Shown: in pieces, positions 8,801 to 63,383 of the stretch
Numbering within the stretch: position 1 is the stretch's first letter
Layout: every line of letters begins with the position of its first letter
Assembly: GCF_009856865.1 (NCBI RefSeq)
Contig: NZ_WVUD01000010.1
Location: 1-64,000, forward strand
Source of the DNA: Solidesulfovibrio aerotolerans
GTDB taxonomy: Bacteria; Desulfobacterota; Desulfovibrionia; Desulfovibrionales; Desulfovibrionaceae
Length of the DNA: 64,000 nucleotides
Reading direction: 5' to 3'
Notes under the pieces: model-generated
Told to the model about the DNA's origin: nothing
Seen by the model: the letters and a program-made list of their open reading frames with translations, nothing else
The model's database searches: none
Position numbers and translations under genes: made by a program

Positions 8801-10809
8801 AGTTCGCCCTGGCGGATGAAGTTGACGCGACCGGTCAGCGTGGAAAAAACGTTTCGGGGGCGCTTCTCGCCCACCTCAAAATCCGCAGCCGTCATAGAGG
8901 CCAGGACATCGACGACAAACCGGCCCTGGCTGGCCAGGGAGGCAAAATCCACGCGCGCAGGCGTGTCGCCGGGCGTGCCCCAGGCCTGCCGGGCGTCGCC
9001 GACCGTGGCCAGGGTGATGCCGAGCACGCCGGCGATGTTGGCGAATTCGCCGCCAAGGGCCGGCCGGTCGGGGAGCAGGCCCTGCCACGGATGTTGCCGG
9101 TCGGCGCGCATACCGTCGCGGTAATAGTTCGTGGGCAGCCCGGCGGCCTTGCCGGCGGCCTCAGCAGCGGCACCCAGCGACCGGTTGATGCGGCCATAGG
9201 CCTGCCCCGGATTGACGTCTGGTTTCACCGCGAAGGCAAAGCCCTGGTAAAAGCTCCCGACACCGTCGCCGTGGCTGGACAGGTGCAGGGAAACCTGGGC
9301 CGCAATGTCGCGGTCGCCTAAAAGCTTGCGCAAATCCCGGGCGCTTTCCACGCATTCGGCCTCGGCTGCGGCAGCGGCCCGGGTGTCGGCCAGACGGGTC
9401 TTGGCCGCCGGCACAAGGGCCATGAGCGCCGCCGCCTCGCTAGGTGGCAACTGGACAAAATCGTCGCGCCACATGATGCGGCGCAGATCGCCCCGGCGGG
9501 TGGCCAGGGCGGCGATGGCCGTCTCGTCGCGGTCCTTGCCGGCCAGCCGCAGGCGCATAAGCCGGGTGGTGACGACGTCCACTTCGTCTTTAAGGGTTTC
9601 CAGCAGCGTCTCGCGCACGGCCGGATCGGCCAAGAGCTTTCCCCCCTCCTCCCCGCCGGCCGTCAGGCGGTCGAGGGAAGCAAGCAGCGTATCGGCGTGG
9701 CGCACGCTTTCCGTCAGATCCCGGTACTGGCTGCGCAGATCCTTGCCTTTGCCGCGAAGCGCGGCAAAAAATTCCCGCAAGCCGACCAGAGACTGGCTGC
9801 GACCGGAGGTGGCCAGCAGCAGTGTTGGCCGGGCAGGCGGCTCGGCGGCCAGACGCCGGGCCAATCGCACCAACGCGGCCACAGAGGCGGCCTCGTCAGC
9901 GCCAGGAGCCTGCCCCGGGGTCAACGCGCCGGCATCGTAGGCGGCATCCACCACCAGCAACTGGCCGGCCAGGGCCGGATCGGTTCCGGGGATAAGCAGA
10001 TGGATGTTGCTGGCCACCACCGGTTCCCAGGCGGCCTTGGCGGCCAGGGTGGCGGATTGTCCGGCCGGGTCGCCCTTGAGGCTACGGTAATCGCCCAGCA
10101 GTTGGCTGGCCTGGGCGCCAGACAGCAGAAACCGGGGAAACCGCACCGGGGTCAGCTCGAATTTGTCCTGAAAGACGCCGTTGTCGGCGGGACGTTCGGC
10201 CGGGCTGTCGTCGATGTAGACGACCGCCTTGGCCCCGAGCTGGGCGGCAGCCTGCCAGTTGCGCCCGCTGTGCAGATCCATGAGCACGATGGCGTCTTGG
10301 GGGGAGGTGCCGTCAAAATCACGGTAGCTGCCGGCACCGGCGTAGACGAGAGGGCCGGTCAGGCCCTCGGGGGGAATCGAACCCGGGGTGAAGGCATTAA
10401 GCGCCAGCGGGGTCAGCGTTGTCTGCCCGCCACCGGCCACGGAGAGCCGGGTCGGGCCGTGGACCATGGCCGGCGCGCGGTAGCGAAGCCGCCCCACTTC
10501 GCCCACACCCAGGCCCTTGAAATAGGCTTCCAGGGCGTCGGCGGCGGCACTTGCCCCCGGGGAACCCGGGGAGCGGTCGCCAAGGCCGGCCAGGGCGTCA
10601 ATAACGGCCCGGTCGAGGTCGGCATCGGTTACCCCCAGCCAGGACGCGGCCAGGGCATTGTCGCCGGTATCAGCCGCGCTTTTTTTGACCCGCTTGGCCG
10701 CAGCCGGCCCGGCCGCCAGCAGACACAGTATTATGCCAAGCAGCAGCGCCACGACAGCGCGGCCAGACAGACGGCGGCAGACCAGGGGGAAAAGGAACGG
10801 GGGTGGCAT
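5821..10809 (-). CDS. 1662-residue hybrid: degenerate M28-like peptidase domain fused to FtsX/MacB-type permease
   Basis: Order of parts: signal/anchor segment about 17-38; PA-like insert (TGPLVYAGAGSYRDFDG...) about 145-230; M28-like aminopeptidase fold about 270-345, interrupted by a helical charged stretch about 345-500 and resumed to about 640; carboxypeptidase-regulatory-like beta domain about 650-745; three membrane segments from about 930; FtsX-type segment NLRRRKVRTALTCLTLIIL near 1055; a periplasmic MacB-like loop; three more segments about 1350-1470; a soluble tail. The usual M28 metal ligands are mostly missing: the His of HxD is Ala (VDAAYDAG) and the Glu-Glu pair is absent (LLATSGRSQS), so it is probably a binding rather than a cutting domain. 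It lies 6 bases after its ATPase gene (10816-11556) and overlaps the next gene by 4 bases. Likely the main permease of an ABC machine acting on peptides, lipoproteins or envelope structure. Confidence 0.75.
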   Translation of the reverse strand: MPPPFLFPLVCRRLSGRAVVALLLGIILCLLAAGPAAAKRVKKSAADTGDNALAASWLGVTDADLDRAVIDALAGLGDRSPGSPGASAAADALEAYFKGLGVGEVGRLRYRAPAMVHGPTRLSVAGGGQTTLTPLALNAFTPGSIPPEGLTGPLVYAGAGSYRDFDGTSPQDAIVLMDLHSGRNWQAAAQLGAKAVVYIDDSPAERPADNGVFQDKFELTPVRFPRFLLSGAQASQLLGDYRSLKGDPAGQSATLAAKAAWEPVVASNIHLLIPGTDPALAGQLLVVDAAYDAGALTPGQAPGADEAASVAALVRLARRLAAEPPARPTLLLATSGRSQSLVGLREFFAALRGKGKDLRSQYRDLTESVRHADTLLASLDRLTAGGEEGGKLLADPAVRETLLETLKDEVDVVTTRLMRLRLAGKDRDETAIAALATRRGDLRRIMWRDDFVQLPPSEAAALMALVPAAKTRLADTRAAAAAEAECVESARDLRKLLGDRDIAAQVSLHLSSHGDGVGSFYQGFAFAVKPDVNPGQAYGRINRSLGAAAEAAGKAAGLPTNYYRDGMRADRQHPWQGLLPDRPALGGEFANIAGVLGITLATVGDARQAWGTPGDTPARVDFASLASQGRFVVDVLASMTAADFEVGEKRPRNVFSTLTGRVNFIRQGELFPDRPAPGTVVCVYQGKTRFYAITDARGQFRVNGLANKKFVLDKAVIEGYRFDPDTGSAVWAIDKKQTGKDAYRVKMNRNAMETDLIMFGCDQTTLFSAFDPRSFRYFTRIELLDARREAPPMRSWFSRLDTLDSTLLSIFLEPGTPFKCILSDTVLSRKLLLLNADAAHPTGVGYPVDANPVLPATELLGARDMWALVGPRIATLEAHGIVSERLRDLTDRGRALYADALAAKEAKRFDAMVSAARSSWALAVRVYNDVEKTQRDVLLGVLFYIALFIPFAYCVERVVFNYADIHKRIAAFLATLTAVIAVVYAVHPAFKLTYSPLVVIIAFFILGLSVMVAAIIFMRFEREMAALQRRASHVKATEIGGMRAFAAAFVIGVSNLRRRKVRTALTCLTLIILTFTIMSFTSIKSTRDEGAAQVSDTAPYQGVLLKNIGWHSLPPESLAVLADACGTTEVVAPLAWLELPEKTVAPITHLRVGEHSEMVQGIIGLSADESRLGRMAGLLSAGQWFAPGQTDAVILPQPMAERLGVAPGGTVTLFGRTFTVVGLFRKNALEERPDLDGEALTPVVFPSEVSKESSEAEKEAAESGEDVKTLQSRYQHIDDDLVVIVPYETLMGLGGQLKSVVVAPPAGSAAEASATAEAGSALAGRLADRFGLAVFSGQADGVFLYHAGDSLGYAGVTNILIPLVISVLIVLNTMIGAVYERKREIGVYTAVGLAPSHVSFLFIAEALAFAVISVVLGYLLAQVTAGLLSGTSLWAGMTANYSSTAGVAAMLLVIAVVLLSVIYPSKVASQIAIPDVNRSWTLPEAVDGVITTRLPFLVKVREQECAGGFLFDYYQAHQDVSHGLFATADVDYVFECPWDMPGASPHPKERHPEFCDLRACMRLTGTVWLAPFDFGIKQSVSIVFTPAWETPGYMEIDVALTRVAGEAGMWKRLNKGFLNDLRKQLLVWRSLEESTRTSYEDKVIGGYTARLGSDAPAGEGTA

Positions 10810-10815
10810 GCGGAC

Positions 10816-11556
10816 TCAGCCCTCCCTGGTCCCGATGCCGCCCACGGTGATGTTGAGCTGGGCGCGTTCCTCGATCTTATCGATGCGCCCGTCGCGAATC
10901 CAGACCACCCGGTCGGAAACGTTGAGCATTTTGTAATCGTGGGTGGCGGAAATAACGGTCACGCCCCGGTCGGAACTGAGCCGCTTTAAAAGGGTGATGA
11001 TTTCCTCGCCCGTGGTCAGGTCCAGGTTGCCGGTGGGTTCGTCGGCCAAAACGATGGCCGGGGTGTTGGCCAGGGACCGGGCAATGGCCACCCGCTGCTG
11101 CTGGCCGCCGGAGAGTTCCTGGGGTCGGTGGGCGTGGCGCTCGCGCAGGCCGACCAGCCCTAAAAGCTCCAGGCCTTTTTCCGTGGCCTCGTCCTGGGAC
11201 GCGCCGGCAAAGGTCATGGGCAGGGTCACGTTTTCCAGGGCGGTCATCACCTGAATGAGATTAAACGTCTGAAAAATATAGCCGATTTTGCGGTTTCGCA
11301 GCCAGGCCAGTTCGTAGGCATCGAGCTGGGCAATGTCCACTTCGTCAATAAAGACCTTGCCGGTGGAGGGTTTGTCCAGGCCGCCGATCATGTTGAACAG
11401 CGTGGATTTGCCCGACCCGGAAGGCCCCATGATGGACAGGTATTCCCCGGCCTTGATGGTCAGGTCCACGCCGCGAAGGGCCTGGACCACCTGCGTGCCC
11501 ATGGTGAATGTTCTGGCCACGCCGGCCACCCGGACGATGTTGTGCGCCTCGACCAT
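10816..11556 (-). CDS. ABC transporter ATPase, LolD/MacB type
   Basis: A 246-residue ATPase with Walker A GPSGSGKST near residue 45, signature LSGGQQQRVAIARSLA and Walker B IVLADEPTGNLD, the hallmark set of the LolD/MacB/FtsE group that drives FtsX-type permeases by mechanotransmission rather than substrate passage. It sits between a small FtsX-type permease gene (11590-12318) and the giant M28-like/FtsX hybrid (5821-10809), so it most likely energises one or both. The gene tail reads ...TVGGIGTREG. The ATPase assignment is firm; the choice of partner is inference from position. Confidence 0.92.
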   Translation of the reverse strand: MVEAHNIVRVAGVARTFTMGTQVVQALRGVDLTIKAGEYLSIMGPSGSGKSTLFNMIGGLDKPSTGKVFIDEVDIAQLDAYELAWLRNRKIGYIFQTFNLIQVMTALENVTLPMTFAGASQDEATEKGLELLGLVGLRERHAHRPQELSGGQQQRVAIARSLANTPAIVLADEPTGNLDLTTGEEIITLLKRLSSDRGVTVISATHDYKMLNVSDRVVWIRDGRIDKIEERAQLNITVGGIGTREG

Positions 11557-11589
11557 ACTTCCCGTTGCTCCCTTAGCCCGCCCGGCGGG

Positions 11590-12318
11590 TCATTCCTGAG
11601 CCCGCATGGCTTCCACGGGCCGCATTCTGGCGGCCACCGCCGCCGGATAGACCACGCCCAAAAGGCTCAGCCCCGCCCCCACGGCCACGGACAACCCAAG
11701 GGTCGCCCCAATCGCCACCAGGGAAACATTGGTCACGGCAGCCCACCCGAACCGGACAAGCCCGACCAGCAGCCCGATCAGGACGCCGCAAACCGCGCCC
11801 AGAAGCGACCCGGCCAGCCCCTGCATGCCGGCTTCGAGCAGAAACAGCCGCAAAATGAAGCGATCCAGCGCCCCCAGGCATTTCATGGTGCCGATTTCGC
11901 GAAAGCGCTCGGTGACGGCCATGAGCTGGGCATTGACGATGCCGACGGTGCAGACCAGCAGGGACAGGATGACGATCCAGCGTTCTTTGGGACTGGTGGT
12001 CAGGCGCGCGGCCTCATCCGCCGGCGAGACAGCGGCCGAGGGCAGGCTCGGCAGATCGTAGCCGGCATCGACCAGGGCCAGACGCTGTTGCGGCTCGCCG
12101 GACTGGAGCAGGCCCACGGCCACATCAGAACCGGTGAGAGTAAAACTTAAAAAGGCCACGGCCAGAACCAGACTGGCCACGGTGATCATGGACCGGAAAA
12201 ACCGGACCTGAATGCTTTTAAGGCTGATTTCCAGAGACTTGCGAAACGGCAGGACCACCTGTCTGGCAATCCTGTCCGACCGGCCGGCCTTCGGCGTCGT
12301 TCCACCCGCTTGCGACAT
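11590..12318 (-). CDS. Small FtsX-type ABC permease
   Basis: A 242-residue permease. One membrane segment near residues 42-65 (FFRSMITVASLVLAVAFLSF) is followed by a short extracytoplasmic loop of about 60-70 residues, then three segments and the typical tail GVVYPAAVAARMRPVEAMRAQE. The inner TERFREIGTMKCLGA stretch is the coupling-helix motif of the MacB/LolCE family. The loop is much smaller than in LolC or MacB, so this subunit probably has no large periplasmic domain and may pair with the giant hybrid. First gene of the five-gene leftward operon; ATPase follows after 33 bases. Confidence 0.8.
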   Translation of the reverse strand: MSQAGGTTPKAGRSDRIARQVVLPFRKSLEISLKSIQVRFFRSMITVASLVLAVAFLSFTLTGSDVAVGLLQSGEPQQRLALVDAGYDLPSLPSAAVSPADEAARLTTSPKERWIVILSLLVCTVGIVNAQLMAVTERFREIGTMKCLGALDRFILRLFLLEAGMQGLAGSLLGAVCGVLIGLLVGLVRFGWAAVTNVSLVAIGATLGLSVAVGAGLSLLGVVYPAAVAARMRPVEAMRAQE

Positions 12319-12401
12319 GCACCACCCGATCCCGGCCCAGGCCGGGCCGCAGTCTGTTCCCTGCCTCAGGCGTTCGCGTCGGCGCTGCCGGCGAGAAGGA
12401 A

Positions 12402-12434
12402 GCCTCCGGCGGCCAAAGGTACTTCGCCCTTTGG
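12402..12434 (+). repeat. Dispersed intergenic repeat, short copy
   Basis: Core GCCTCCGGCGGCC at 12402-12414 is followed by a hairpin CCAAAGG...CCCTTTGG (12413-12434). The same core plus hairpin recurs at 23565-23596, 43325-43356, 43734-43770 and 49517-49547, always between genes. Here it sits between the regulator stop (12590) and the permease start (12318). Confidence 0.7.
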
Positions 12435-12589
12435 AATCCCATTACGCACACAAGGTGTTACGGGTTTCCCCGACCTTGATTCCGGTTAACGTCAGGTATT
12501 GCACGCCCCCTGAAGGGACTGTTGTCGAGTTTTGACAGAAACCGTCCCCCTTGCCAAGGCGCGGGAGGGACCGGAAGGCGACGGTCCGG

Positions 12590-13954
12590 TTATTTTTTCG
12601 ACCGGCGCTTGGGAATCTCGATGCCGTATTTCTGGATCTTGTAGTTGAGCGCCCGGCGGCTGACGCCCAAAAGCGGCGCAGCTTCCTTTTGCACCCAGCC
12701 CGACTGCTCCAGGGCACGCACGATGGCGGCCTTTTCGCTCTGATCCAGCGACAGGTTGTCGGCCGAGCGATCCGGCCCCTTGCCGGCGAGCGGCAGTTGC
12801 AGATCCTGGGGGGCCAGCACGCCGTCGGTGCACAGAACCACCCCGGCTTCCAGGGCATTTCGCAACTGGCGCACGTTGCCGGGCCAGGGATAGGCAGTCA
12901 GATAGGCCATGGTTTCCACCGGCACGGTCACTGGCGGCATGCCCTGGGCGGCGCAGAACTGGCGGGTGAAATGTTCGGCCAGGATGGGAATGTCTTCGCG
13001 CCGCTCGCGCAAGGGCGGCACATTGATGGTCACCACTTTGAGGCGATACAAAAGATCCTCGCGGAAAACGCCGTCTTCCACCTGTTCAAAGATATCGGCG
13101 TTGGTGGCGGCGATGACCCGGCAATCGACCTGGATCTCGCGCACATCGCCAATGCGGCGGATCTTGTGGTTTTCCAGAAAGCGCAGCAGGCGGATTTGCA
13201 TTTCAGAGGAGATGTTGCCGATCTCGTCGAGAAACAGCGTCCCCTGGTTGGCCTGCTCAATGAGGCCCTTTTTGTCCTTGACCGCGTGGGTGAACGAGCC
13301 TTTGACGTGGCCGAAAAGCTCGGATTCGAGCAACCCGGCCGGGGTCGAGCCACAGTCCACAGTGACCAGCGGGCCGCTTTTGCGCGGGCCGCGACGGTGG
13401 ATCAGGTTGGCCACCAGCTCCTTGCCGGTGCCGGATTCGCCAAGGACCAGGACGTTGACATCGCGCGGGGCCACCCGTTCGATCATGGCGGCCAGATCGC
13501 GCATGGTCTGGCTCTTGCCGACAAGGCCCGTTTCGCCCAGATCGGCATTTCGGGCGGCATCGAGGCCGGCGGCCTTGGCAAAGACCTCGGTCACCCGCGT
13601 CAGCAGCTCCTGGCCGTCAAAGGGCTTGGTCAGGTAATCCACGGCCCCGTGCTTGATGGCTTCCACGGCCCCGGGAATGCTGCCGTGGGCGGTCAAAAAG
13701 ATGATGGGCAGCTTGATGTTGCGCTTTTCCATCTCTTCGAGCATGCGCATGCCGTCCATGCCGGGCATGCGGATGTCGGAAATGACCAGACGCACGGGCT
13801 TTTTCGCCAAGACGTCCAGGGCTTCCAGGCCGTTGGCGGCGGTGATCACATCATAGCCGGCCGAGACGAGCCGCACCTCCAGCACTTCCAGGATATGCGG
13901 GTCGTCGTCAACGACAAGGACGATCTTGCGGGTCTGCTGCGGGCCTATACTCAT
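12590..13954 (-). CDS. NtrC-family response regulator, GlrR-like, with altered GAFTGA loop
   Basis: A 454-residue regulator. Receiver domain 1-125 has the acidic pair VVDDDP and phospho-acceptor Asp60 (LVISDIRMPG). An AAA+ domain follows with Walker A GESGTGKE near 171 and Walker B LFLDEIG, then a Fis-type helix-turn-helix tail (EAAPLLGVSRRALNYKI). The sigma-54 contact loop, normally GAFTGA, reads GSFTHA. The start at MSIGPQQ is chosen because a receiver domain begins there; the upstream part of the frame is the neighbouring gene out of frame. Order kinase (14608-16062), lipoprotein (13992-14606), regulator matches the GlrK-QseG-GlrR locus of enterobacteria. It probably drives sigma-54 promoters in envelope stress, unless the loop change has altered that. 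Confidence 0.9.
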   Translation of the reverse strand: MSIGPQQTRKIVLVVDDDPHILEVLEVRLVSAGYDVITAANGLEALDVLAKKPVRLVISDIRMPGMDGMRMLEEMEKRNIKLPIIFLTAHGSIPGAVEAIKHGAVDYLTKPFDGQELLTRVTEVFAKAAGLDAARNADLGETGLVGKSQTMRDLAAMIERVAPRDVNVLVLGESGTGKELVANLIHRRGPRKSGPLVTVDCGSTPAGLLESELFGHVKGSFTHAVKDKKGLIEQANQGTLFLDEIGNISSEMQIRLLRFLENHKIRRIGDVREIQVDCRVIAATNADIFEQVEDGVFREDLLYRLKVVTINVPPLRERREDIPILAEHFTRQFCAAQGMPPVTVPVETMAYLTAYPWPGNVRQLRNALEAGVVLCTDGVLAPQDLQLPLAGKGPDRSADNLSLDQSEKAAIVRALEQSGWVQKEAAPLLGVSRRALNYKIQKYGIEIPKRRSKK

Positions 13955-27054: not shown

Positions 27055-28506
27055 TCAGGCCAGCCCGGCAAAGAGGAAAAACAACCCGGCCCCAAGCAGC
27101 ATGGCCGCCGGCAGGGTGAGCACCCAGGCCATGGCAATGGAACGCAGGGTTCGCATCTGCAAGCCGCTTTTATGGGCGGCCATGGTGCCGGCCACGCCAG
27201 AGGCCAGCACATGGGTGGTGGAGACCGGCAGCCCCAGACCATCGGCCAGGGCAATGGTGCCCATGGCCACAATCTGGGCCGAGGCACCCTGGGCATAGCT
27301 GAGCCTGGTCTTGCCGATTTTTTCACCGATGGTGACCACGATGCGCTTCCAGCCGACCATGGTGCCGCAGCCAAGGGCCAGGGACACCGCAAAAATCACC
27401 CAGCTCGGGGCGTATTCCGTGGGCCGGCGCAGGGTGGTGCGCAGCCCATCAAGCTTTTGGCGCTCCTCGCTCGTAGTGGCAAGGCCGGCCATGACCCGGG
27501 CCGCATCGTCCAGGCACAGGATGTCGGTGCGCAGCGTCCACCGCTCGGCCGCCGGCACAGCCGCGATACTCGGATATTGGGCCAGACACTGCTGGATGGC
27601 CTCGGAGGCGGCCACGGCCCCGCGCACGTCGCAGGAGACGGCCGAAGTCTTGGCGGGCAGTTCCGCGATATCCCCGTTTTGATAGAATTTTTCGATTTCC
27701 AGGCGGTGGGCGTCGAAATAATCGGTAAACTGCGCCGCCGCCTGGCGCACGCCCAAAAGTTCCTCGGTGGTGGCGTCGGAGTTTATGGCATAGACCCCGG
27801 GCACAATGCCGATCAGGATGAGCATGATCAACCCCACGCCCTTCTGGCCGTCGTTGGAGCCATGGGCCAGACTCACCCCGAGGCCGGAGGCGATAAGGGC
27901 CGCCCGCATGCCAAGCGGCGGCGGCGCGTTGCCCACCGGCGGACTGTGCAGGGTCGGATTTTTGAGCAGGCGCTGCAGGAGAAGGAGCAAGGCCCCGGCC
28001 AGGACAAAACCGATGACCGGGGAAATAAAAAGCGACAGCCCCACTTCGGCGGCCTTGTGCCAATTGACGCCCGAGCCAAGCGGCAAGCCTTCGCGCAGGG
28101 CATTGGCCAGACCGACGCCGAGGATGGAACCGATAAGCGTGTGGGAGCTTGAGGCCGGCAACCCCAGATACCAGGTGGCGAAGTTCCAGAGAATGGCAGA
28201 AACGAGCAAGGAAAAGACCATGGCCAATCCGATGGTGGAGTTGACCGAAACGAGCAGATCGACCGGCAGCAGATGGACAATGGCGTAGGCCACGGCAATG
28301 CCGCCAAGGGAGACACCCAGGAAATTGCACAGTCCCGACAGCACAACGGCGCTGCGGGCACCCAGGGATTTGGTATATATGACCGTGGCCACGGCATTGG
28401 CCGTATCGTGGAAACCGTTGACGAATTCAAAAGCAAGGGCAATGCCCAGGGAAAGACACAACAATAAGAGGGTGTGGCCGTCGAGACTGGAAATGGACTG
28501 CAACAT
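27055..28506 (-). CDS. pit: PiT-family inorganic phosphate transporter
   Basis: A 483-residue transporter with the two inverted PiT halves. The first carries GFHDTANAVAT and the second SLAHGSNDGQKGVG, both family signatures, and the tail reads PVSTTHVLASGVAGT. A hydrophilic loop of about 130 residues (about 240-370) separates the later segments, with several Cys. PiT proteins take up phosphate, usually as a metal-phosphate complex, using the proton gradient. It follows a small Nif11-like gene on the same strand and lies opposite the PhoU-containing GAK operon, so a link to phosphate control is plausible. Confidence 0.92.
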   Translation of the reverse strand: MLQSISSLDGHTLLLLCLSLGIALAFEFVNGFHDTANAVATVIYTKSLGARSAVVLSGLCNFLGVSLGGIAVAYAIVHLLPVDLLVSVNSTIGLAMVFSLLVSAILWNFATWYLGLPASSSHTLIGSILGVGLANALREGLPLGSGVNWHKAAEVGLSLFISPVIGFVLAGALLLLLQRLLKNPTLHSPPVGNAPPPLGMRAALIASGLGVSLAHGSNDGQKGVGLIMLILIGIVPGVYAINSDATTEELLGVRQAAAQFTDYFDAHRLEIEKFYQNGDIAELPAKTSAVSCDVRGAVAASEAIQQCLAQYPSIAAVPAAERWTLRTDILCLDDAARVMAGLATTSEERQKLDGLRTTLRRPTEYAPSWVIFAVSLALGCGTMVGWKRIVVTIGEKIGKTRLSYAQGASAQIVAMGTIALADGLGLPVSTTHVLASGVAGTMAAHKSGLQMRTLRSIAMAWVLTLPAAMLLGAGLFFLFAGLA

Positions 28507-28593
28507 GCCTTTCTCCGGATCGTAAGCATCGGCTTTAAGGAGGTGGTCGCCGGGCAGCGACGGCCGCAGGGAAACAGCGAAAACGGAGAGGGC

Positions 28594-28776
28594 CTAGGTG
28601 CCTTCCATCAGATGCACCAGCGCTTGCCTGGCTTTGAGTTCCTCAGCGGTGAAAACGAAACCCAAGGCGGCAGCATGCTCCACCAATTCGGCAACGGACA
28701 TGCCGCTGACAAGCAACAATTGATCCTTATCAGCTTGCAACCACTGTAAATAGCGATCAATATTCTCCTGACTCAT
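28594..28776 (-). CDS. Nif11-like leader-domain small protein
   Basis: A 60-residue protein. MSQENIDRYLQWLQADKDQL followed by VAELVEHAAALGFVFTAEEL has the spacing of the Nif11 domain: an N-terminal helix, then a helix ending in G-F-x-F-T/S-x-x-E-L. Nif11 domains are leaders of ribosomally made natural products or stand-alone proteins near nitrogenase. Here there is no core peptide after the leader and no modification enzyme, so it is stand-alone. GGAGG lies five bases before ATG 28776. It reads into pit on the same strand, 87 bases away. Confidence 0.7.
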   Translation of the reverse strand: MSQENIDRYLQWLQADKDQLLLVSGMSVAELVEHAAALGFVFTAEELKARQALVHLMEGT

Positions 28777-29007
28777 ACCCACCTCCATACAGGAATATGG
28801 TTCATTTGCTCGCCACGCAATAGGCTCCAACTGTGTAGTTTGGGTCAATGCCGCATGGCAATCCGGTGTTCGTTTGCCCTGACTGGACGGGGGGGTGAAA
28901 GAGTGTCAGAAATTTCAGCCCAAAGTTCACCTTTTCTTCATATTCGGATGCTACAAGCGTGGCCCGGCCCAGGTTAAAGCGCCTGGGGCCAGCAAAGGAG
29001 GATGCGC

Positions 29008-29283
29008 GTGAACAAGCTTTTCAAATATGACGGACTCCAACAGCCCGATACCATCGCCGCCTATCTCGAGGCGGTGCGTGACGGGTTTGCCTCAGGCGAA
29101 ATCACCCTGACCCAGGGCGAAGACGTGTTGACACTCGCCCCCAAAGGCGTGGTGGCCGTCACCGTCGAAGGCAAGCTCAAGGGCGAGGATCGCAAGCTCA
29201 AGCTGACGTTTCGCTGGAAGGAGCGCGAACAGGAATGTAACGGGCCTTTGCTCATCACAGCCCGGGACGACGGCGATGCATGA
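29008..29283 (+). CDS. Amphi-Trp domain protein, GAK system
   Basis: A 91-residue protein starting at GTG. GGAGG at 28997-29001 is six bases before GTG 29008, while the ATG at 29002 touches it directly, so GTG is the better start. The sequence (KLFKYDGLQQPDTIAAYLEA, then EDVLTLAPKG and a strand ending in LKLTFRWKER) fits the amphi-Trp domain I recall from GAK loci. Its role is unknown. It overlaps the PhoU-kinase gene by eight bases and begins the rightward operon of four GAK genes. Confidence 0.75.
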   Translation: MNKLFKYDGLQQPDTIAAYLEAVRDGFASGEITLTQGEDVLTLAPKGVVAVTVEGKLKGEDRKLKLTFRWKEREQECNGPLLITARDDGDA

Positions 29284-30907
29284 GATTGAACGCAATTTTA
29301 AATTCCTGCTCGTCGAGGTCGAACGCCAGATCGAAGGGGCCATTGCCGTCCTTGAGCACCGCAACGAAAAAGCCATCGCCAAGATCGAGGCCCGCGACGA
29401 CTATATCGACAATTTAAAAAGCGTCATTGAAAACGCCTGTTTCGCCACGCTCCATGGCGAAACCCGGCCCAATGCCCCGGAAGTCGCCCGCATCCGGGCC
29501 TTTCACATCATCGGCAGCAACCTGGAGCGGGTGGGCGACCATGCCGTCAATGTGGTGCGCCAGACCCGCCATTATGACGACCCGGAATGCCTCAAACGCT
29601 ATGCCTACAAGCCGTTTTTCCAGGAAATCCGCAACGCCCTGGCCTGGATGCCCAAAGCGGTGCTCGAACACGACATGGCCACGGCGCTTAAAATCTGTCG
29701 CTGCGAACTGCATCTCGACCGGCTCTACAAGCAGGAATTCGACCGCATCCGCGATGAGTTGCGCACGGGTTTTAATACCGGCGACCTGCTGACCACGCTG
29801 TTTATCTTCCGCTATCTGGAGCGCATGGGCGACGCCTTGTTAAACGTCGGCGAGGCGGCCATTTTCGCCATCACCGGCGACAAATTCAAAATCCGCCAGT
29901 TTACGGCCTTAAGCGACATCCTGGCCGAGTCCGGCCATGAAAACCCGTTGTCCGACCTCGAATTCGAGTCCATCTGGGGCACCCGTTCGGGCTGCCGCAT
30001 CGGCCGGGTGCTGGATCGCGGCGGTGAGGACGATTGCCACAAGGAAGTCATCTTCAAAGACGGCGACAGCGACAAATTGCGCCAGGAAGTCGCCAACTTC
30101 GCCCGCTGGGAAGCACTTATGCCCGGTCTGGCCCCGCGCCTGGAAGCCTTTCGCGAGGGGAAAAAGACCAGTTCCATGCTCATCGAACTGCTGCCGGGCC
30201 AGACCATCCAGGATCTGGCGCTTTCCGGCGACCTCGAACTGCTGGGACGGGCGCTTTCGGCCCAGTGCCGCACGGCCAAAGCCTTGTGGGAAAAGACGCT
30301 GGCTCCGACCCCCGTCACCGTCAACGCAATCAAGCAGTTGCGCGCCCGACTGCCGGAAGTGCTCTCGGTCCATCCCCACTTCCAGCTCAAACGCCGCTCC
30401 ATCGGCTCCTTTGTCGTGCCCTCTCTCAACGAACTGCTTGCCGCTGCCGAGGCTGTGGAGAAAACGCTGCCTGCGCCCTTCTCGGTGCTCATTCACGGCG
30501 ACTACAATTCCAACAACATCCTCTATGACCCGGCCGAAGACCGCATCCACTACATCGACCTGCACCGCTCGACAGAAACCGATCTGACCCAGGACGTGTC
30601 GGTCTTTATGGTTTCCAACTTCCGCCTGCCGGTCTTTGACAAGGCCCGACGCAATGTGCTCAACGCCGTTATTATGGAGTTTTACCGTTTTGCCGCTGCC
30701 TTTGCCGCGGCCAAGGGCGATACGACCTTTGATATGCGTCTGGCCCTGGGCCTGGGCCGCTCGCTTATCACCTCGACCCGGTTTGAACTGAGCCAGCGCT
30801 TTGCCAAATTGATGCTCAATCGCGGCGTCTATCTGCTGGAACGCGTGACCGCCCATAGTGGCGATCCGGCCACGTTCCGGCTGCCCCTGGCCGCGCTATG
30901 CTACTAA
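29276..30907 (+). CDS. PhoU-like domain fused to aminoglycoside-phosphotransferase-type kinase, GAK locus
   Basis: A 543-residue fusion. Residues about 1-215 are two PhoU-like helical repeats, each ending in the RVGDHAVNV and RMGDALLNV type motif. Residues about 240-543 are an APH-fold kinase with the catalytic loop HGDYNSNN and the metal-binding YIDLHRS near residues 402-428. All key kinase residues appear present. The PhoU part suggests control by or of phosphate; the kinase substrate is unknown. It overlaps amphi-Trp by eight bases and is followed after 37 bases by the ATP-grasp gene. Confidence 0.78.
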   Translation: MHEIERNFKFLLVEVERQIEGAIAVLEHRNEKAIAKIEARDDYIDNLKSVIENACFATLHGETRPNAPEVARIRAFHIIGSNLERVGDHAVNVVRQTRHYDDPECLKRYAYKPFFQEIRNALAWMPKAVLEHDMATALKICRCELHLDRLYKQEFDRIRDELRTGFNTGDLLTTLFIFRYLERMGDALLNVGEAAIFAITGDKFKIRQFTALSDILAESGHENPLSDLEFESIWGTRSGCRIGRVLDRGGEDDCHKEVIFKDGDSDKLRQEVANFARWEALMPGLAPRLEAFREGKKTSSMLIELLPGQTIQDLALSGDLELLGRALSAQCRTAKALWEKTLAPTPVTVNAIKQLRARLPEVLSVHPHFQLKRRSIGSFVVPSLNELLAAAEAVEKTLPAPFSVLIHGDYNSNNILYDPAEDRIHYIDLHRSTETDLTQDVSVFMVSNFRLPVFDKARRNVLNAVIMEFYRFAAAFAAAKGDTTFDMRLALGLGRSLITSTRFELSQRFAKLMLNRGVYLLERVTAHSGDPATFRLPLAALCY

Positions 30908-30944
30908 CAACATCTTTGGCCAACTCATGAGCAAGGAGCACATG

Positions 30945-31829
30945 ATGCAAAAAATCGGAGTGGTAGGTATCCCTGGCGGTTGGTCCACCCTGCGCCTTCT
31001 GGACGCTTTGGAGACGCGCACCGGCTATCGCCTGTGCATCGACATGGCCGAAGTGCGCCTGGATCTGGAAACGGGCAAGGCCTATTATAAGGACACGGAC
31101 TTAACCACCCTGGATGGGCTGATCGTCAAAAAGATCGCGCCGTCCTACACCCCCAATGCCTTGGACCGCATGGAAATCCTGCGCTTCCTGCACTCCGGGG
31201 GGCTGCCCGTTTTTTCCGATCCCGACAGCATCTACCGGCTCATCGACCGGTTGAGCGGCACGGCCGTGCTGCGCCGGGGCGGGATTCCCATGCCGCCCAC
31301 GGAAATCACCGAAGACATTGAGGAAGCGGTCGCAATCGTGGCCCGCTTTGGCCGGGCCGTATTTAAGCCGCTGTACAGCTCCAAGGCCCGGGGCATGACC
31401 GTCATCGAGGACGGCCCCGAGGCCCACGAGGAAATTGCCGACTTCAAGGCTGCCGGCAACCAGGTCATGTACATCCAGCAGATGGTCTCCCACGCCGGCG
31501 GCCACCACGATCTGGGCGTGTCCTTTCTCGGCGGCAAGTACCTGGCCACCTACGCCCGCCAGGGCAGCGGCAATTCCTGGGACACCACCACCCGCACCGG
31601 TGGCCGCTACGTGTCCCGCGACCCTTCGCCGGAAATCATTGCCCTGGCCCACAAAGCCCAAAGCCTGTTCCCGGGCATGGCCTTTACCTGCGTTGACGTT
31701 GTGGAGACGCCGGCTGGCGCGGCCATTTACGAAGTGTCGGCCTTTGGCGGCTTCCGGGGGCTGCTCGACGCCTGCAATATCGACGCCGCCGCCGCCTACG
31801 CCGACTACGTCCTGGAGCAGCTGCGATGA
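30945..31829 (+). CDS. GAK-system ATP-grasp enzyme
   Basis: A 294-residue ATP-grasp protein. The N-terminal Rossmann part starts KIGVVGIPGGWSTLRLLDAL; the central lid has AVFKPLYSSKARGM with the lysine of the ATP site, and the C-terminal metal/ATP part reads CVDVVETPAGAAIYEVSAFGG. RimK-like ATP-grasp enzymes form amide or peptide bonds using ATP; here the acceptor is unknown. Two ATGs lie together (30942 and 30945) behind AAGGAG; the second has the better spacing and is used. The last four bases overlap the HprK-related gene. Confidence 0.82.
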   Translation: MQKIGVVGIPGGWSTLRLLDALETRTGYRLCIDMAEVRLDLETGKAYYKDTDLTTLDGLIVKKIAPSYTPNALDRMEILRFLHSGGLPVFSDPDSIYRLIDRLSGTAVLRRGGIPMPPTEITEDIEEAVAIVARFGRAVFKPLYSSKARGMTVIEDGPEAHEEIADFKAAGNQVMYIQQMVSHAGGHHDLGVSFLGGKYLATYARQGSGNSWDTTTRTGGRYVSRDPSPEIIALAHKAQSLFPGMAFTCVDVVETPAGAAIYEVSAFGGFRGLLDACNIDAAAAYADYVLEQLR

Positions 31830-32908
31830 ACAATCCCACTATCGCCGGGCTCATGGCCCCCCTTCTCGAAACTGCCCCCATCGACCAGCGCCTGGAAATC
31901 ACCTTCGACGACGTGACCGTGGTCCTGACTTCCAACTCCCAGGCGCTCACCGACAAGCTTGGTCGCTATTTCCGCGACTTTCTCGGCGGCGGCGGCCAGA
32001 CCGTCATCGAAGTCACGGCCATCGAGGCCGGGCCGCCGGCCTTTGACCTGCCCTTTGCCGTCCACCCCCGGGAACCCGGCAAGACCAAACTCAAGGAAGC
32101 CTCCATCGATCTGCCCGACGGACGCGTGGTGCATAAGCTTTTAACCGGTCTGGTCTTTTTGTTTGGCCAGGGCAAAAACTATGCAGTTGGGCCGTGCTTG
32201 GAAAACGACAATCAAGTGGTCAATTTCATCAATAACCGCTTTATTGAAAATCGCCTCAAGCGCGGTGCCCTGCTCTTTCACGCCGCCGGCGTGGCCATGG
32301 GCGGTGCCGGTCTGGTCATCGCCGGCTTTGCCGGGGCCGGGAAATCCACCCTGGCCCTGGATATCATGGGCCAGGGCACGGATTTCATCAGCAACGACCG
32401 GGTGATGGTCTCGCGCGAGGGCGCCAATCTGACCATGGCCGGGGTGGCCAAGATGCCCCGGATCAATCCCGGCACGGTGCTCAATAACCCCAACCTGGCC
32501 TCGGTCATGAACGCCGAGGATCGGGCGCGCTTTTCCGCCCTGCCCCAGGCCGAACTGTGGGATCTGGAACACAAGTACGACGCCTTTATCGACGAGTGCT
32601 TTGGTCCGGGCCGCTTCAAGCTGGCCTGCCCCATGGCCGGGCTGGTGATCCTTCGCTGGAAACGCGACGCCTCGCCGCTGCTCGCCAACAGGGTCGATCT
32701 GCGCCAGCGCCGCGACCTCATGCCGGCCTTTATGAAGGATATGGGGCTTTTTTACGAATTCGAAGACCCGGCCGAGCCGTCCATGGCCAGCCAGAACGCG
32801 TATCTTTCGCTGCTTGGCGACGTGCCGGTGCTGGAGATCGACGGCGGCGTGGATTTTGCCAAAGCGGCCCGCGTCTGCCTGGAATTTCTGGAGTCGGTGC
32901 GCCGGTAG
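31826..32908 (+). CDS. HprK-related kinase B, GAK system
   Basis: A 360-residue protein with an HPr-kinase-like C-terminal half. The P-loop is GFAGAGKSTLALD near residues 170-182, followed by DFISNDRVMV, the counterpart of the HprK strand with the second acidic residues. The N-terminal half (LEITFDDVTVVLTSNSQALT...) is alpha/beta and shared by the HprK-related group. HprK phosphorylates a serine in HPr; the target here is unknown. ATGA overlap with the ATP-grasp gene indicates tight coupling. The next gene, mgtA, begins 53 bases later. Confidence 0.82.
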   Translation: MNNPTIAGLMAPLLETAPIDQRLEITFDDVTVVLTSNSQALTDKLGRYFRDFLGGGGQTVIEVTAIEAGPPAFDLPFAVHPREPGKTKLKEASIDLPDGRVVHKLLTGLVFLFGQGKNYAVGPCLENDNQVVNFINNRFIENRLKRGALLFHAAGVAMGGAGLVIAGFAGAGKSTLALDIMGQGTDFISNDRVMVSREGANLTMAGVAKMPRINPGTVLNNPNLASVMNAEDRARFSALPQAELWDLEHKYDAFIDECFGPGRFKLACPMAGLVILRWKRDASPLLANRVDLRQRRDLMPAFMKDMGLFYEFEDPAEPSMASQNAYLSLLGDVPVLEIDGGVDFAKAARVCLEFLESVRR

Positions 32909-32961
32909 GAACTCGCCTTGCGGCTCGGATTTGCCAGGGATCAGTTGCACACGGAGTTGTC

Positions 32962-35754
32962 ATGACCGACCCGACGCCGCACGCGGCCTCTCCCGGAGAG
33001 CATCCGGCCTTTTCCCAGGGCCAAGACGCACTGCGTCTTGGCCCGGAAGAGGCCTTTGTCAAAAACCTCGAACATTTCGCCCAGAAAGCCCATGTTTTCG
33101 CCGCCCTGGCGGCCAAGGACAAGGTTTCGCCCTACGAAGCGTTCCAGCACCTGGAAGCCCTGTGGGGCGCGGTGGCGCAAAGCGGCGCAAATCTGGTCGA
33201 ACCCGCTCCGGCGGCCAAACCGGCCATGGCGGGTCTGTCCACCGAAGAGGCCCGGGAGCGCCTGCGCCAGTACGGGCCAAACCAGGCCGGAACGTCAAAG
33301 CGCATCACCCTGGCCAGCCGCATCATCGATGCGGTGAAAAACCCCCTGGTTCTCCTGCTCTTTGTTCTGGGCGGCATCTCCTACGCCACCGACGATGTAC
33401 GCTCGGCCCTGGTCATTATCGGCATGGCCGTACTCGGGGTCACCCTCAAGGTCATCCAGGAGGCTAAGGCCGACACCGCCGCCGAACAGCTCAAAAAAAT
33501 GGTCCACACCACGGCCACGGTGCTGCGCGACGGCGAGCAGCGCGAAATCCCCATGGCCGAGGTTGTCCCGGGCGATGTGGTGCTGCTGGCGGCCGGCGAC
33601 ATGGTGCCGGCCGACGTGCAGCTCGTGCGGGCCAAGGATCTCCACGTCAATCAGGCCATGCTCACCGGCGAAGCCCTGCCGGTGGAAAAAATCGCCCGCG
33701 CCCCCGGCGAACCCACGCCTGAAAGCGAGACGGGCCTGGGCGATCCGGCCATGTGCTTTATGGGCACCAATATCATCTCGGGTTCGGCGGCGGCCCTGGT
33801 CATGGCCACCGGCATCAAAACCTATTTCGGCGGCATCGCGGCCAAACTCTCGGAAAAACGCGCTCCCACCGATTTCGACAAGGGCATCAAAAACTTCACC
33901 ATGCTCATGCTGCGGTTCATGGCAGTCATGACCCCGCTGGTGTTTGTCATAAACGGGACCACCACCGGCGACTGGATGGGCGCTTTCATGTTCGCCCTGG
34001 CCGTGGCCGTGGGGCTGACCCCGGAGATGCTGCCCATGGTGGCCACGGTGTGCCTGTCCAAGGGCGCCCTGGCCATGGCCAAGCACAAGGTCATTGTCAA
34101 ACGCCTGGACGCCATCCAGAACTTCGGGGCCATCGACATCCTGTGCACGGACAAGACCGGCACCCTGACCCAGGACAGGATCATCCTGGAAAAATACCTG
34201 GACGTCACCGGCGAAGAGGACCACTCGGTTCTGGAATACGCCTATATCAACAGCAAGCTGCAAACCGGGCTTCGAAACGCCCTGGATGTGGCCGTGATCA
34301 ACTCCGGGGACGACGCCGGATCAACCATTGACCCGTCCCACTACGAACTGCTGGACGAAATCCCCTTCGATTTCATGCGTCGACGCTTGAGCGTCATTGT
34401 GCGCGACAAGCGCTCGGGCAAGGCAATCCTCATTTGCAAGGGTGCGGCCGAGGAAGTCTTTTCCAAAAGCTGCGATTGCCTGCACGACGGCGTTGTCTCG
34501 CCCCTGGACGCCGTACACCGCGAAACCATGCAGGCGGTCGTCCACGACCTCAACGAAGACGGATTCCGGGTGGTGGCCCTGGCCTTTAAGGAAGTGGACG
34601 GCGCGCGCCACGATTTCGCCGTGGCCGACGAGTCCGGGCTGACGCTTATGGGCTATCTGGCCTTTCTCGATCCGCCCAAGGACACCGCCGCCGCCGCCCT
34701 GGCCACCATGCTGGCCCACGGCATCCAGCCCAAGATCCTCACCGGGGACAATGCGGTCATAACCGCCAAGATCTGCCGCGAGGTCGGGTTTGACGCCGGC
34801 CATCACATCATCACCGGCGAGATGGCAGCCGCCATGACCGAGACGGAACTCTCCGAGGCCGTGGAAACCTGCCACGTCTTTGCCAAACTCGACCCCATGC
34901 AAAAAGAGGCCATCGTCAAGGCGCTGCGGGCGCGCGGCCATGTGGTCGGATTCATGGGCGACGGCATCAACGACGCCCCGGCCCTGCGGGCCGCCGACGT
35001 CGGCATCTCGGTTGATTCCGCCGTGGACGTGGCCAAGGAATCGGCCGACATCATTTTGCTCGAAAAAAGCCTCGCCGTCCTCGAACATGGGGTCTGCGAA
35101 GGCCGTAAGATCTTTTTTAACATCACCAAGTATATCCGCATGGGGGCCAGCTCGAACTTTGGCAACATGTTCAGCGTGCTCGGGGCCAGCGCCTTTTTGC
35201 CCTATCTCCCCATGCTGCCCATCCAGATACTGGTCAACAACCTCATGTACGACTTCTCCCAGACGGCCATTCCCACCGACAACGTGGATGAGGACATCGT
35301 CAAAAGCCCCAGGCGCTGGCGCATCGACGATATCCGGCGCTACATCCTCTATCTCGGGCCGGTCAGTTCCATCTTTGACTATGTCACCTTTTTCATCCTG
35401 CTCCATGTCTTTGGAGCCTGGGACAACGCCGCCCTGTTCCAGACCGGCTGGTTTATTGAATCGCTGCTGTCGCAAACCATCATCGTGCATGTCATCCGCA
35501 CGGATAAGATTCCATTCCTGCAAAGCCGTTCCAGCCTGACGCTGGGCCTGACCACCCTGCTCATCTGTGCCCTTGGCGTGTGGCTGCCGTTTTCACCGCT
35601 CGCCGAATCCTTCGGGCTGGTTGTCCCGCCGGTCGGCTACTGGGGACTGATCGCCCTGGTGATCTTTTGTTATATGTGTCTGGCCCAGATCGTTAAGTCC
35701 TGGGTGGTGCGCCGCATCGCTGCGACTTCGACCGCCTGCCCGACCCGGGCCTGA
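32962..35754 (+). CDS. mgtA: P-type ATPase, MgtA-like magnesium importer
   Basis: A 930-residue P3B-type ATPase. DKTGTLTQD holds the phosphorylated Asp, TGEALPV the actuator loop and GDGINDAPALR the hinge. The C-terminal LPIQILVNNLMYDFSQTAIP block with NVDEDIV follows the MgtA/MgtB pattern rather than that of calcium pumps (no Ca2+-ATPase PEGL/NATE set). It should import Mg2+ down its gradient using ATP. Start MTDPTPHAAS sits behind GGAG. It follows the GAK genes by 53 bases and may be read with them; a strong terminator ends the unit at 35877. Confidence 0.88.
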   Translation: MTDPTPHAASPGEHPAFSQGQDALRLGPEEAFVKNLEHFAQKAHVFAALAAKDKVSPYEAFQHLEALWGAVAQSGANLVEPAPAAKPAMAGLSTEEARERLRQYGPNQAGTSKRITLASRIIDAVKNPLVLLLFVLGGISYATDDVRSALVIIGMAVLGVTLKVIQEAKADTAAEQLKKMVHTTATVLRDGEQREIPMAEVVPGDVVLLAAGDMVPADVQLVRAKDLHVNQAMLTGEALPVEKIARAPGEPTPESETGLGDPAMCFMGTNIISGSAAALVMATGIKTYFGGIAAKLSEKRAPTDFDKGIKNFTMLMLRFMAVMTPLVFVINGTTTGDWMGAFMFALAVAVGLTPEMLPMVATVCLSKGALAMAKHKVIVKRLDAIQNFGAIDILCTDKTGTLTQDRIILEKYLDVTGEEDHSVLEYAYINSKLQTGLRNALDVAVINSGDDAGSTIDPSHYELLDEIPFDFMRRRLSVIVRDKRSGKAILICKGAAEEVFSKSCDCLHDGVVSPLDAVHRETMQAVVHDLNEDGFRVVALAFKEVDGARHDFAVADESGLTLMGYLAFLDPPKDTAAAALATMLAHGIQPKILTGDNAVITAKICREVGFDAGHHIITGEMAAAMTETELSEAVETCHVFAKLDPMQKEAIVKALRARGHVVGFMGDGINDAPALRAADVGISVDSAVDVAKESADIILLEKSLAVLEHGVCEGRKIFFNITKYIRMGASSNFGNMFSVLGASAFLPYLPMLPIQILVNNLMYDFSQTAIPTDNVDEDIVKSPRRWRIDDIRRYILYLGPVSSIFDYVTFFILLHVFGAWDNAALFQTGWFIESLLSQTIIVHVIRTDKIPFLQSRSSLTLGLTTLLICALGVWLPFSPLAESFGLVVPPVGYWGLIALVIFCYMCLAQIVKSWVVRRIAATSTACPTRA

Positions 35755-63306: not shown

Positions 63307-63383
<77 letters not shown>

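Follow-up and report, generated by a model that had tools for sequence, protein, structure and literature searches.

What is the function of four adjoining genes that encode a small amphi-Trp protein, a PhoU domain fused to an APH kinase (PhoU-APH), an ATP-grasp enzyme and an HprK-related kinase (HprK-B), and that lie between genes for a phosphate transporter and an MgtA-type pump? The question is raised by a stretch of 64,000 nucleotides from Solidesulfovibrio aerotolerans (contig NZ_WVUD01000010.1, positions 1 to 64,000), referred to here in its full length as the window. The first-pass annotation assigned the locus to the GAK system, a set of named families with no described function, and suggested a phosphate- or Mg-linked modification. 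In a literature search that reached few subscription papers, we likewise found no paper on the GAK system and no published function, and GAK, HPr and ATP-grasp terms gave no match in the accessible parts of two Desulfovibrio fitness papers (PMC10102598, PMC5193443). Here we describe GAK as a genuine, common system of which the named families cover a part; they leave out two core components and a link to phosphate. The core set comprises amphi-Trp, XXXCH, a PHP-fold enzyme, PhoU-APH, ATP-grasp, HprK-B and a YvcK-like CofD-GAK protein, and the window holds the kinase-rich portion of this system, which is split across several loci of the genome.

The four GAK genes of the window are as follows.
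29002-29283, + strand: amphi-Trp protein, 93 amino acids (TIGR04354 65.6 bits, cut-off 31)
29276-30907, + strand: PhoU-APH fusion kinase, 543 amino acids (PF01895 79.6 bits in two stretches, PF01636 36.6 bits)
30945-31829, + strand: GAK system ATP-grasp enzyme, RimK/MptN-like (TIGR04356 420.9 bits, cut-off 300)
31826-32908, + strand: HprK-related kinase B (TIGR04355 543.3 bits, cut-off 200)

ATP-grasp, HprK-B and amphi-Trp each score above their own NCBIfam cut-off, so the placement in the GAK families holds by hidden Markov model (HMM). The first-pass description of four overlapping genes stands for the overlaps of 8 bases (amphi-Trp/PhoU-APH) and 4 bases (ATP-grasp/HprK-B), and probably fails at the remaining junction. 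The ATP-grasp gene most plausibly starts at the ATG at 30945, behind AAGGAG and 37 bases after PhoU-APH, and with this start two of the three junctions overlap; an alternative GTG start at 30858 would give an overlap with PhoU-APH.

PhoU-APH, which is not among the named families, is almost certainly a core GAK part. In a phylum sample of 297 genomes, with PhoU-APH called at E≤1e-30 and the ATP-grasp (grasp_GAK) at its own cut-off, PhoU-APH is present in 20/20 grasp_GAK genomes and in 2/277 others (G219, G241; Fisher p=4e-29), the negatives including 77 of 97 matching genomes with grasp_GAK below cut-off; one of the 77, G078, carries HprK-B besides a truncated gene. Imperfect copies occur in G193 (cut by a contig end) and G046 (containing stops). 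Among 247 genomes of a family sample, 109 have both PhoU-APH and ATP-grasp and 136 have neither, each gene being present in 110; the exceptions are G348, with PhoU-APH only (partial), and G459, with ATP-grasp only (at a contig start). The named loci, the top-ranking 80 of 518, are biased to close relatives, and several come from genomes that are also in the genome samples (e.g. L057/G213, genus mates). PhoU-APH is found in 71 of them, with two further truncated copies, and in 55 of the 57 whose flanks extend 3 kb each way; those lacking it are L057 (apparently genome G213, where the gene is on another contig) and L058. Amphi-Trp lies immediately 5' of PhoU-APH in 22/22 testable places of the phylum sample (a 23rd place is truncated at a contig end). 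A further 28 PhoU-APH loci were fetched from the 110 family genomes, and each has amphi-Trp and the PHP gene alongside, amphi-Trp being scored by presence in the locus, and order and PHP gene being read from locus listings. The idea of PhoU-APH as a recurring GAK partner is borne out by both survey and co-occurrence. The idea of a chance neighbourhood, with GAK genes beside unrelated kinases and transporters, is a most improbable account of the locus: co-occurrence across the 297 and 247 genomes excludes it for PhoU-APH, and it stands for the flanking PiT, Nif11 and MgtA genes, which look mainly like genus-level neighbours.

Both halves of PhoU-APH retain their characteristic motifs. The ExxxD metal motif of PhoU repeats is present twice, in ERVGD (29525-29539) and ERMGD (29819-29833), and the nearest solved structures of this half are PhoU proteins; at 83.3 bits against the TIGR02135 equivalog cut-off of 130.25, it is not a plain PhoU. 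In the APH half the HGDxxxxN catalytic loop reads HGDYNSNN (30494-30517), and K261 (the beta-3 Lys), H407-D409, N414 and the following Asp, D428, are invariant in 63 aligned rows. This half scores 28.6 bits against the APH(3') model NF033068 (cut-off 205), too low for a call of aminoglycoside resistance.

A second core part outside the named families is very probably a PHP-fold enzyme with predicted phosphoesterase activity. Clustering of open reading frames of at least 70 amino acids from the 80 named loci gives 41 recurring neighbour clusters, namely PhoU-APH, amphi-Trp, PstB-like, MgtA and 37 that were Pfam-scanned by representatives, several without a match. One family of about 400 amino acids is present in 54/80 loci, always on the strand of the ATP-grasp gene and upstream of it; the scanned members match nothing in Pfam or NCBIfam, and no PDB sequence match was found up to E 1. 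The predicted model of this genome's copy (predicted local distance difference test score, pLDDT, 90.7) has a PHP fold, matching RNase AM (9etk) by Foldseek at E 8e-5, with Z scores of 15.9 to 3o0f, 15.4 to 9etk and 14.7 to 2yb1. In the phylum sample, the family is present in 17/20 grasp_GAK genomes and 4/277 others. Beyond the GAK parts and the phosphatases named here, no neighbour cluster occurs in more than 16 collapsed locus groups of the 80 loci.

In eight loci, including all six titled alpha- or gammaproteobacteria, a PGM-like His-phosphatase takes the place of the PHP enzyme. The two (54/80 and 8/80) never occur in one locus (p=5e-5), and this mutual exclusion suggests replacement. An ApaH-like metallophosphoesterase accompanies the His-phosphatase in seven of the eight (L097, L115, L119, L127, L129, L130, L131), of which five also match His-phosphatase-Nudix. 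Separately, a low-molecular-weight phosphatase/ArsC-family gene (PF01451) lies just upstream of the cassettes of L075, L078, L087, L090 and L104 (5/80 loci, compared with 2/60 control windows).

The remaining parts of the system are retained elsewhere in the genome (G000; 4.6 Mb, 161 contigs), scattered over several loci. All five NCBIfam GAK families (TIGR04354-TIGR04358) score above cut-off. The first-pass annotation correctly noted that CofD-like and XXXCH proteins are absent from the window, and a genome HMM search locates both outside it. CofD-GAK (TIGR04357, 523.3 bits) is encoded at C11:104881-105984, on the window's contig, in the following cluster.
L040 (G000:C11:96000-115900), 8876-13245, one strand: PstB-PhoU-HprK-B2-CofD-GAK, the second HprK-B scoring 359.6 bits

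XXXCH proteins are encoded on contigs C85 and C139 (102 and 91.2 bits), and the C85 copy adjoins a PHP-like gene. There are six amphi-Trp genes, including one on C24 immediately 5' of a second PhoU-APH; in 14 kb around the latter, no GAK gene was found except this amphi-Trp. The pair (L041, 1758-10292) is flanked by two PAS/HisKA sensor histidine kinases. Lying outside the window, HprK-B2, the PHP-fold enzyme and the second amphi-Trp/PhoU-APH pair escaped the first-pass annotation. By ATP-grasp, the closest named records among the matches listed are 'Desulfovibrio sp. DV' (90%) and Solidesulfovibrio.

The function of GAK is probably phosphate-related, as had been suggested from the window; Pst/PhoU genes near GAK genes and PhoB-box enrichment in relatives both support this. 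A PhoU domain sits inside the core protein set, as part of PhoU-APH. In addition to the PstB-PhoU-HprK-B2-CofD cluster of this genome, PstSCAB-PhoU-CofD is found in L243, a PhoU gene lies about 3 kb from the PHP gene in L242, and PstB-PhoU lies upstream of the cassette in L063, L064, L075 and L106. Any Pst/PhoU gene is present in 8/74 loci outside the genus (in three of them the only such gene is PstS-like, and in one it is PstA) and in 0/60 control windows, drawn from four GAK genomes only (p=0.0085).

The experimentally found Desulfovibrio PhoB box is given as a repeated (c/t)GT(n)AC with a stated spacer of 4 bases (PMC3333781). With an 11-base period this pattern occurs exactly in 6/91 cassette upstream regions and 1/1677 controls (p=1e-7; 0.2 in shuffled sequence), and with up to one mismatch in 19/91 and 39/1677 (p=1e-11; 3.8 shuffled); two spacers and two mismatch limits were tried, and the 91 regions include related pairs, with kinship uncorrected. 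An E. coli-type Pho box reaches p<0.05 against dinucleotide shuffles in 8/51 regions (binomial p 0.004, kinship again uncorrected). In this genome, PstB of the L040 cluster has two one-mismatch sites upstream, at distances of 99 and about 520 bases (L040:12810 and 13229; PstB ATG at 12711). The whole 64-kb window has two one-mismatch sites, neither near the GAK operon, and the two-mismatch sites in 28300-29300 (29077, 29078, 29226) are all outside the intergenic region.

Catalytic motifs are present in the alignments of APH, HprK-B and ATP-grasp. The HprK-B P-loop reads GFAGAGKST (32324-32350); against the HprK model TIGR00679 the protein scores 30.4 bits (cut-off 240), only the core being related. 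The nearest solved structures of ATP-grasp are of the RimK/LysX type. HprK-B is present in 19/20 and CofD-GAK in 16/20 grasp_GAK genomes of the phylum sample. CofD-GAK is nearest to YvcK/GlmR (100.7 bits, YvcK model cut-off 196), and CofD-type F420-like chemistry was downgraded because the match is to YvcK rather than CofD. CofD-GAK without ATP-grasp, HprK-B, PHP or PhoU-APH is seen, at the cut-offs used, in one genus (G076, G109, G138, G165, G190, G235, G256), and in L245 (G076) a PiT-like gene lies about 2 kb from it. By profile scan, an XXXCH protein can carry an amphi-Trp domain; XXXCH counts come from a home-made profile and are probably too low.

Amphi-Trp is predicted to form an alpha helix and four beta strands (AlphaFold2, pLDDT 86.4). 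A Foldseek search of the PDB gave no match to the model (best E 1.5), and its VIA-align Z scores reach at most 2.5, which is not proof of a new fold. Class-a amphi-Trp proteins, the class preceding PhoU-APH, share FxxESxQD, with Ser in 85%. This motif was considered as a phospho-site and rejected, the window copy being without it. The first-pass proposal of amphi-Trp as the modified substrate is left as a possibility: the strict pairing with PhoU-APH favors it, while no modification site can be named.

The best model, put forward tentatively, is that amphi-Trp proteins undergo, or carry, a reversible phosphorylation gated by phosphate; we infer the sensing, substrate, direction and chemistry. 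It draws on composition, co-occurrence, gene order, intact catalytic motifs, the PHP fold of the model and PhoB-box enrichment in relatives. In a number of relatives, the phosphate response (PhoB) would control the cassette. PhoU-APH would report phosphate status through its PhoU half, like PhoU with PstB/PhoR, and gate its APH kinase, which together with HprK-B would phosphorylate amphi-Trp proteins or a ligand they carry. The ATP-grasp and YvcK-like enzymes may extend or cap the phosphorylated group, and the PHP enzyme would reverse the modification, a step that elsewhere may fall to the His-phosphatase, mostly with the metallophosphoesterase.

Several observations weigh against this model. 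The window amphi-Trp reads DGLQQ (29029-29043) in place of the signature, so that the candidate-site Ser of ESxQD is gone; the ADDR motif of HPr kinase is SNDR in HprK-B, and the EVN motif of ATP-grasp reads EVS. CofD-GAK is present in 9/277 genomes without ATP-grasp, HprK-B, PHP or PhoU-APH, and L102 holds PHP plus a His-phosphatase-Nudix gene. As to regulation, the PhoB box shows no enrichment when the published 4-base spacer is taken as written (0/91 exact; 2/91 with up to one mismatch, compared with 4.15 in shuffled sequence), two PstS upstream regions serving as positive control gave no PhoB-box site, 72/91 cassettes lack the box even at one mismatch, and the upstream region of the window operon (28300-29300) has no site under two mismatches.

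The main rival, conceivable but rather doubtful, is that GAK builds and degrades a phosphorylated small molecule, a metabolite or messenger, for which amphi-Trp proteins would be receptors. APH would phosphorylate it, the YvcK-like protein nucleotidylate it (as GlmR with GlcNAc-1P) and ATP-grasp add an amino acid, and PHP or the His-phosphatase/ApaH-like/Nudix enzymes would degrade it. Relatives of APH, of MptN/LysX-type ATP-grasp and of YvcK-type proteins include small-molecule enzymes, and the GAK proteins match all three types. Among the matches of the PHP model is 2yb1, a structure containing AMP and phosphate, and the hydrolases of other lineages are ApaH-like, PGM-like and His-phosphatase-Nudix. 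One GlmR was shown to be a uridyltransferase (PMC10128056). However, the strictest pairing involves a small protein (the 22/22 amphi-Trp genes before PhoU-APH), HPr kinase homologues phosphorylate peptides (PMC8498205), and no widely kept metabolite-building enzyme outside the GAK parts is found among the 41 neighbour clusters. A broader view, which we consider unlikely, is that GAK is phosphate-status signalling with a logic like that of inositol-pyrophosphate/SPX. Here, three ATP-using enzymes and a nucleotidyltransferase-like protein would build a phosphorylated tag or messenger, phosphatases able to replace one another (PHP, or His-phosphatase together with metallophosphoesterase and Nudix) would erase it, the PhoU-gated kinase would read phosphate, and amphi-Trp proteins would carry or read the signal.

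The model of reversible amphi-Trp phosphorylation gives no part to the genes flanking the operon, which are listed here with the intergenic region.
27055-28506, - strand: PiT-type phosphate transporter (PF01384 292 bits); divergent neighbour, genus-conserved, not core
28594-28776, - strand: bare Nif11 domain, 60 amino acids, no core peptide (PF07862 22.1 bits, cut-off 23.8); genus-level neighbour
28777-29001, no strand: divergent intergenic region, with no PhoB-box-like site at up to two mismatches
32962-35754, + strand: MgtA-type P-type ATPase (TIGR01524 1085.5 bits, cut-off 610.75); mostly genus-level neighbour

The positions and identities given earlier for all seven genes (PiT, Nif11-like, amphi-Trp, PhoU-APH, ATP-grasp, HprK-B, MgtA) are confirmed by the Pfam/NCBIfam profiles, with the Nif11-like match below cut-off. 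PiT, Nif11 and MgtA are not supported as parts of the system, being mainly genus-level neighbours in the survey (5/80, 5/80 and 8/80 named loci), and it is on MgtA, such a neighbour, that the proposed Mg-linked role rests. All five loci with PiT and Nif11 are of the window's genus, as are six of the eight with MgtA, the others being L058 and L123. The idea that the locus regulates phosphate and magnesium transport, with PiT and MgtA as working components under the control of the kinases, is improbable on these counts, and in L315, a genus mate, PiT, Nif11 and MgtA are all missing beside the four GAK genes. In its favor, the order PiT-Nif11-[amphi-Trp-PhoU-APH-grasp-HprK-B]-MgtA is kept in 11/12 sufficiently long loci of the genus (several being the same records as named loci), MgtA adjoins GAK genes in L058 and L123 as well, and in the window its ATG (32962) is 53 bases past HprK-B on the same strand. 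PiT and MgtA would be later neighbours outside the core, perhaps co-regulated. The MgtA protein has an N-terminal DUF7219 extension (PF23856 27.9 bits; 32962-33300), similar in genus mates and L058 and not seen in L123.

The longest open reading frame of the Nif11-like gene spans 28594-28848 (- strand), with the likely ATG at 28776. The protein is below both cut-offs (PF07862 22.1/23.8 bits, TIGR03798 21.1/32.3 bits) and ends with the domain. The adjacency of a Nif11 domain to GAK genes invites comparison with maturation of ribosomally synthesized and post-translationally modified peptides (RiPPs), with a Nif11-like leader, a graspetide-type ATP-grasp and a lasso-type HPr kinase homologue. HPr kinase homologues of lasso clusters phosphorylate the C-terminal Ser of precursor peptides (PMC8498205), and a radical SAM gene lies near 6/80 loci and an asparagine-synthase gene near 3/80. 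This reading is very improbable and was rejected: the Nif11 domain is sub-cut-off, without a core peptide and genus-restricted (5/80 loci), radical SAM and asparagine-synthase genes are uncommon among the loci, and ATP-grasp scores 26.2 bits against the peptide-maturase model GRASP_SAV_5884 (cut-off 350). The loci with the radical SAM gene are L073, L092, L100, L101, L113 and L117.

No sigma-70-like match was found in the intergenic region 28777-29001, and a promoter and terminator scan of the window gave no excess over shuffled sequence. The sole Rfam match above threshold in the window is a tRNA gene at 63307-63380.

By record titles (many being metagenome bins, unchecked), the cassette is spread over sulfate reducers, other proteobacteria, planctomycetes, myxobacteria and several candidate phyla, and since it recurs across so many lineages, a functional answer would apply widely. 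The PhoU-kinase, the PHP-fold enzyme and the PhoB-box pattern turn the function-less GAK names into a specific and testable hypothesis, that amphi-Trp proteins are modified under the control of phosphate. PhoU is a long-studied regulator, here fused to its own kinase, and the fusion could show directly what PhoU controls.

Comparison with known systems places these proteins as follows. All five named families of the NCBIfam GAK system are found here; the differences are the extra core parts PhoU-APH and PHP, for which the scans gave no dedicated GAK model, the dispersal of parts in this genome, and the flanking of the window copy by PiT and MgtA. The GAK PHP family resembles RNase AM/YciV-type PHP phosphoesterases in predicted fold and in the conserved HxH, H, HP, DxH pattern of PHP proteins, and differs in that its scanned members lack Pfam and NCBIfam matches and that no PDB sequence matches it up to E 1. 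CofD-GAK aligns with YvcK/GlmR proteins (UPF0052; 2ppv, 2o2z, 2hzb) in two stretches, with the GGT and DxGGS regions, but is below the YvcK cut-off; YvcK/GlmR genes usually sit with yvcJ/yvcL, whereas here CofD-GAK adjoins PhoU and HprK-B. HprK-B shares an aligned P-loop, an upstream His and an Asp-Arg region with HPr kinase/phosphorylase and its lasso-peptide homologues, and differs in its sub-cut-off HprK score, in SNDR for ADDR and in that no HPr gene is among the recurring neighbours. The likeness to PhoU/Pst signalling lies in the PhoU repeats with both ExxxD motifs and in the proximity of PstB-PhoU or PstSCAB-PhoU to GAK genes in several genomes, while the PhoU half here is below the equivalog cut-off and fused to a kinase.

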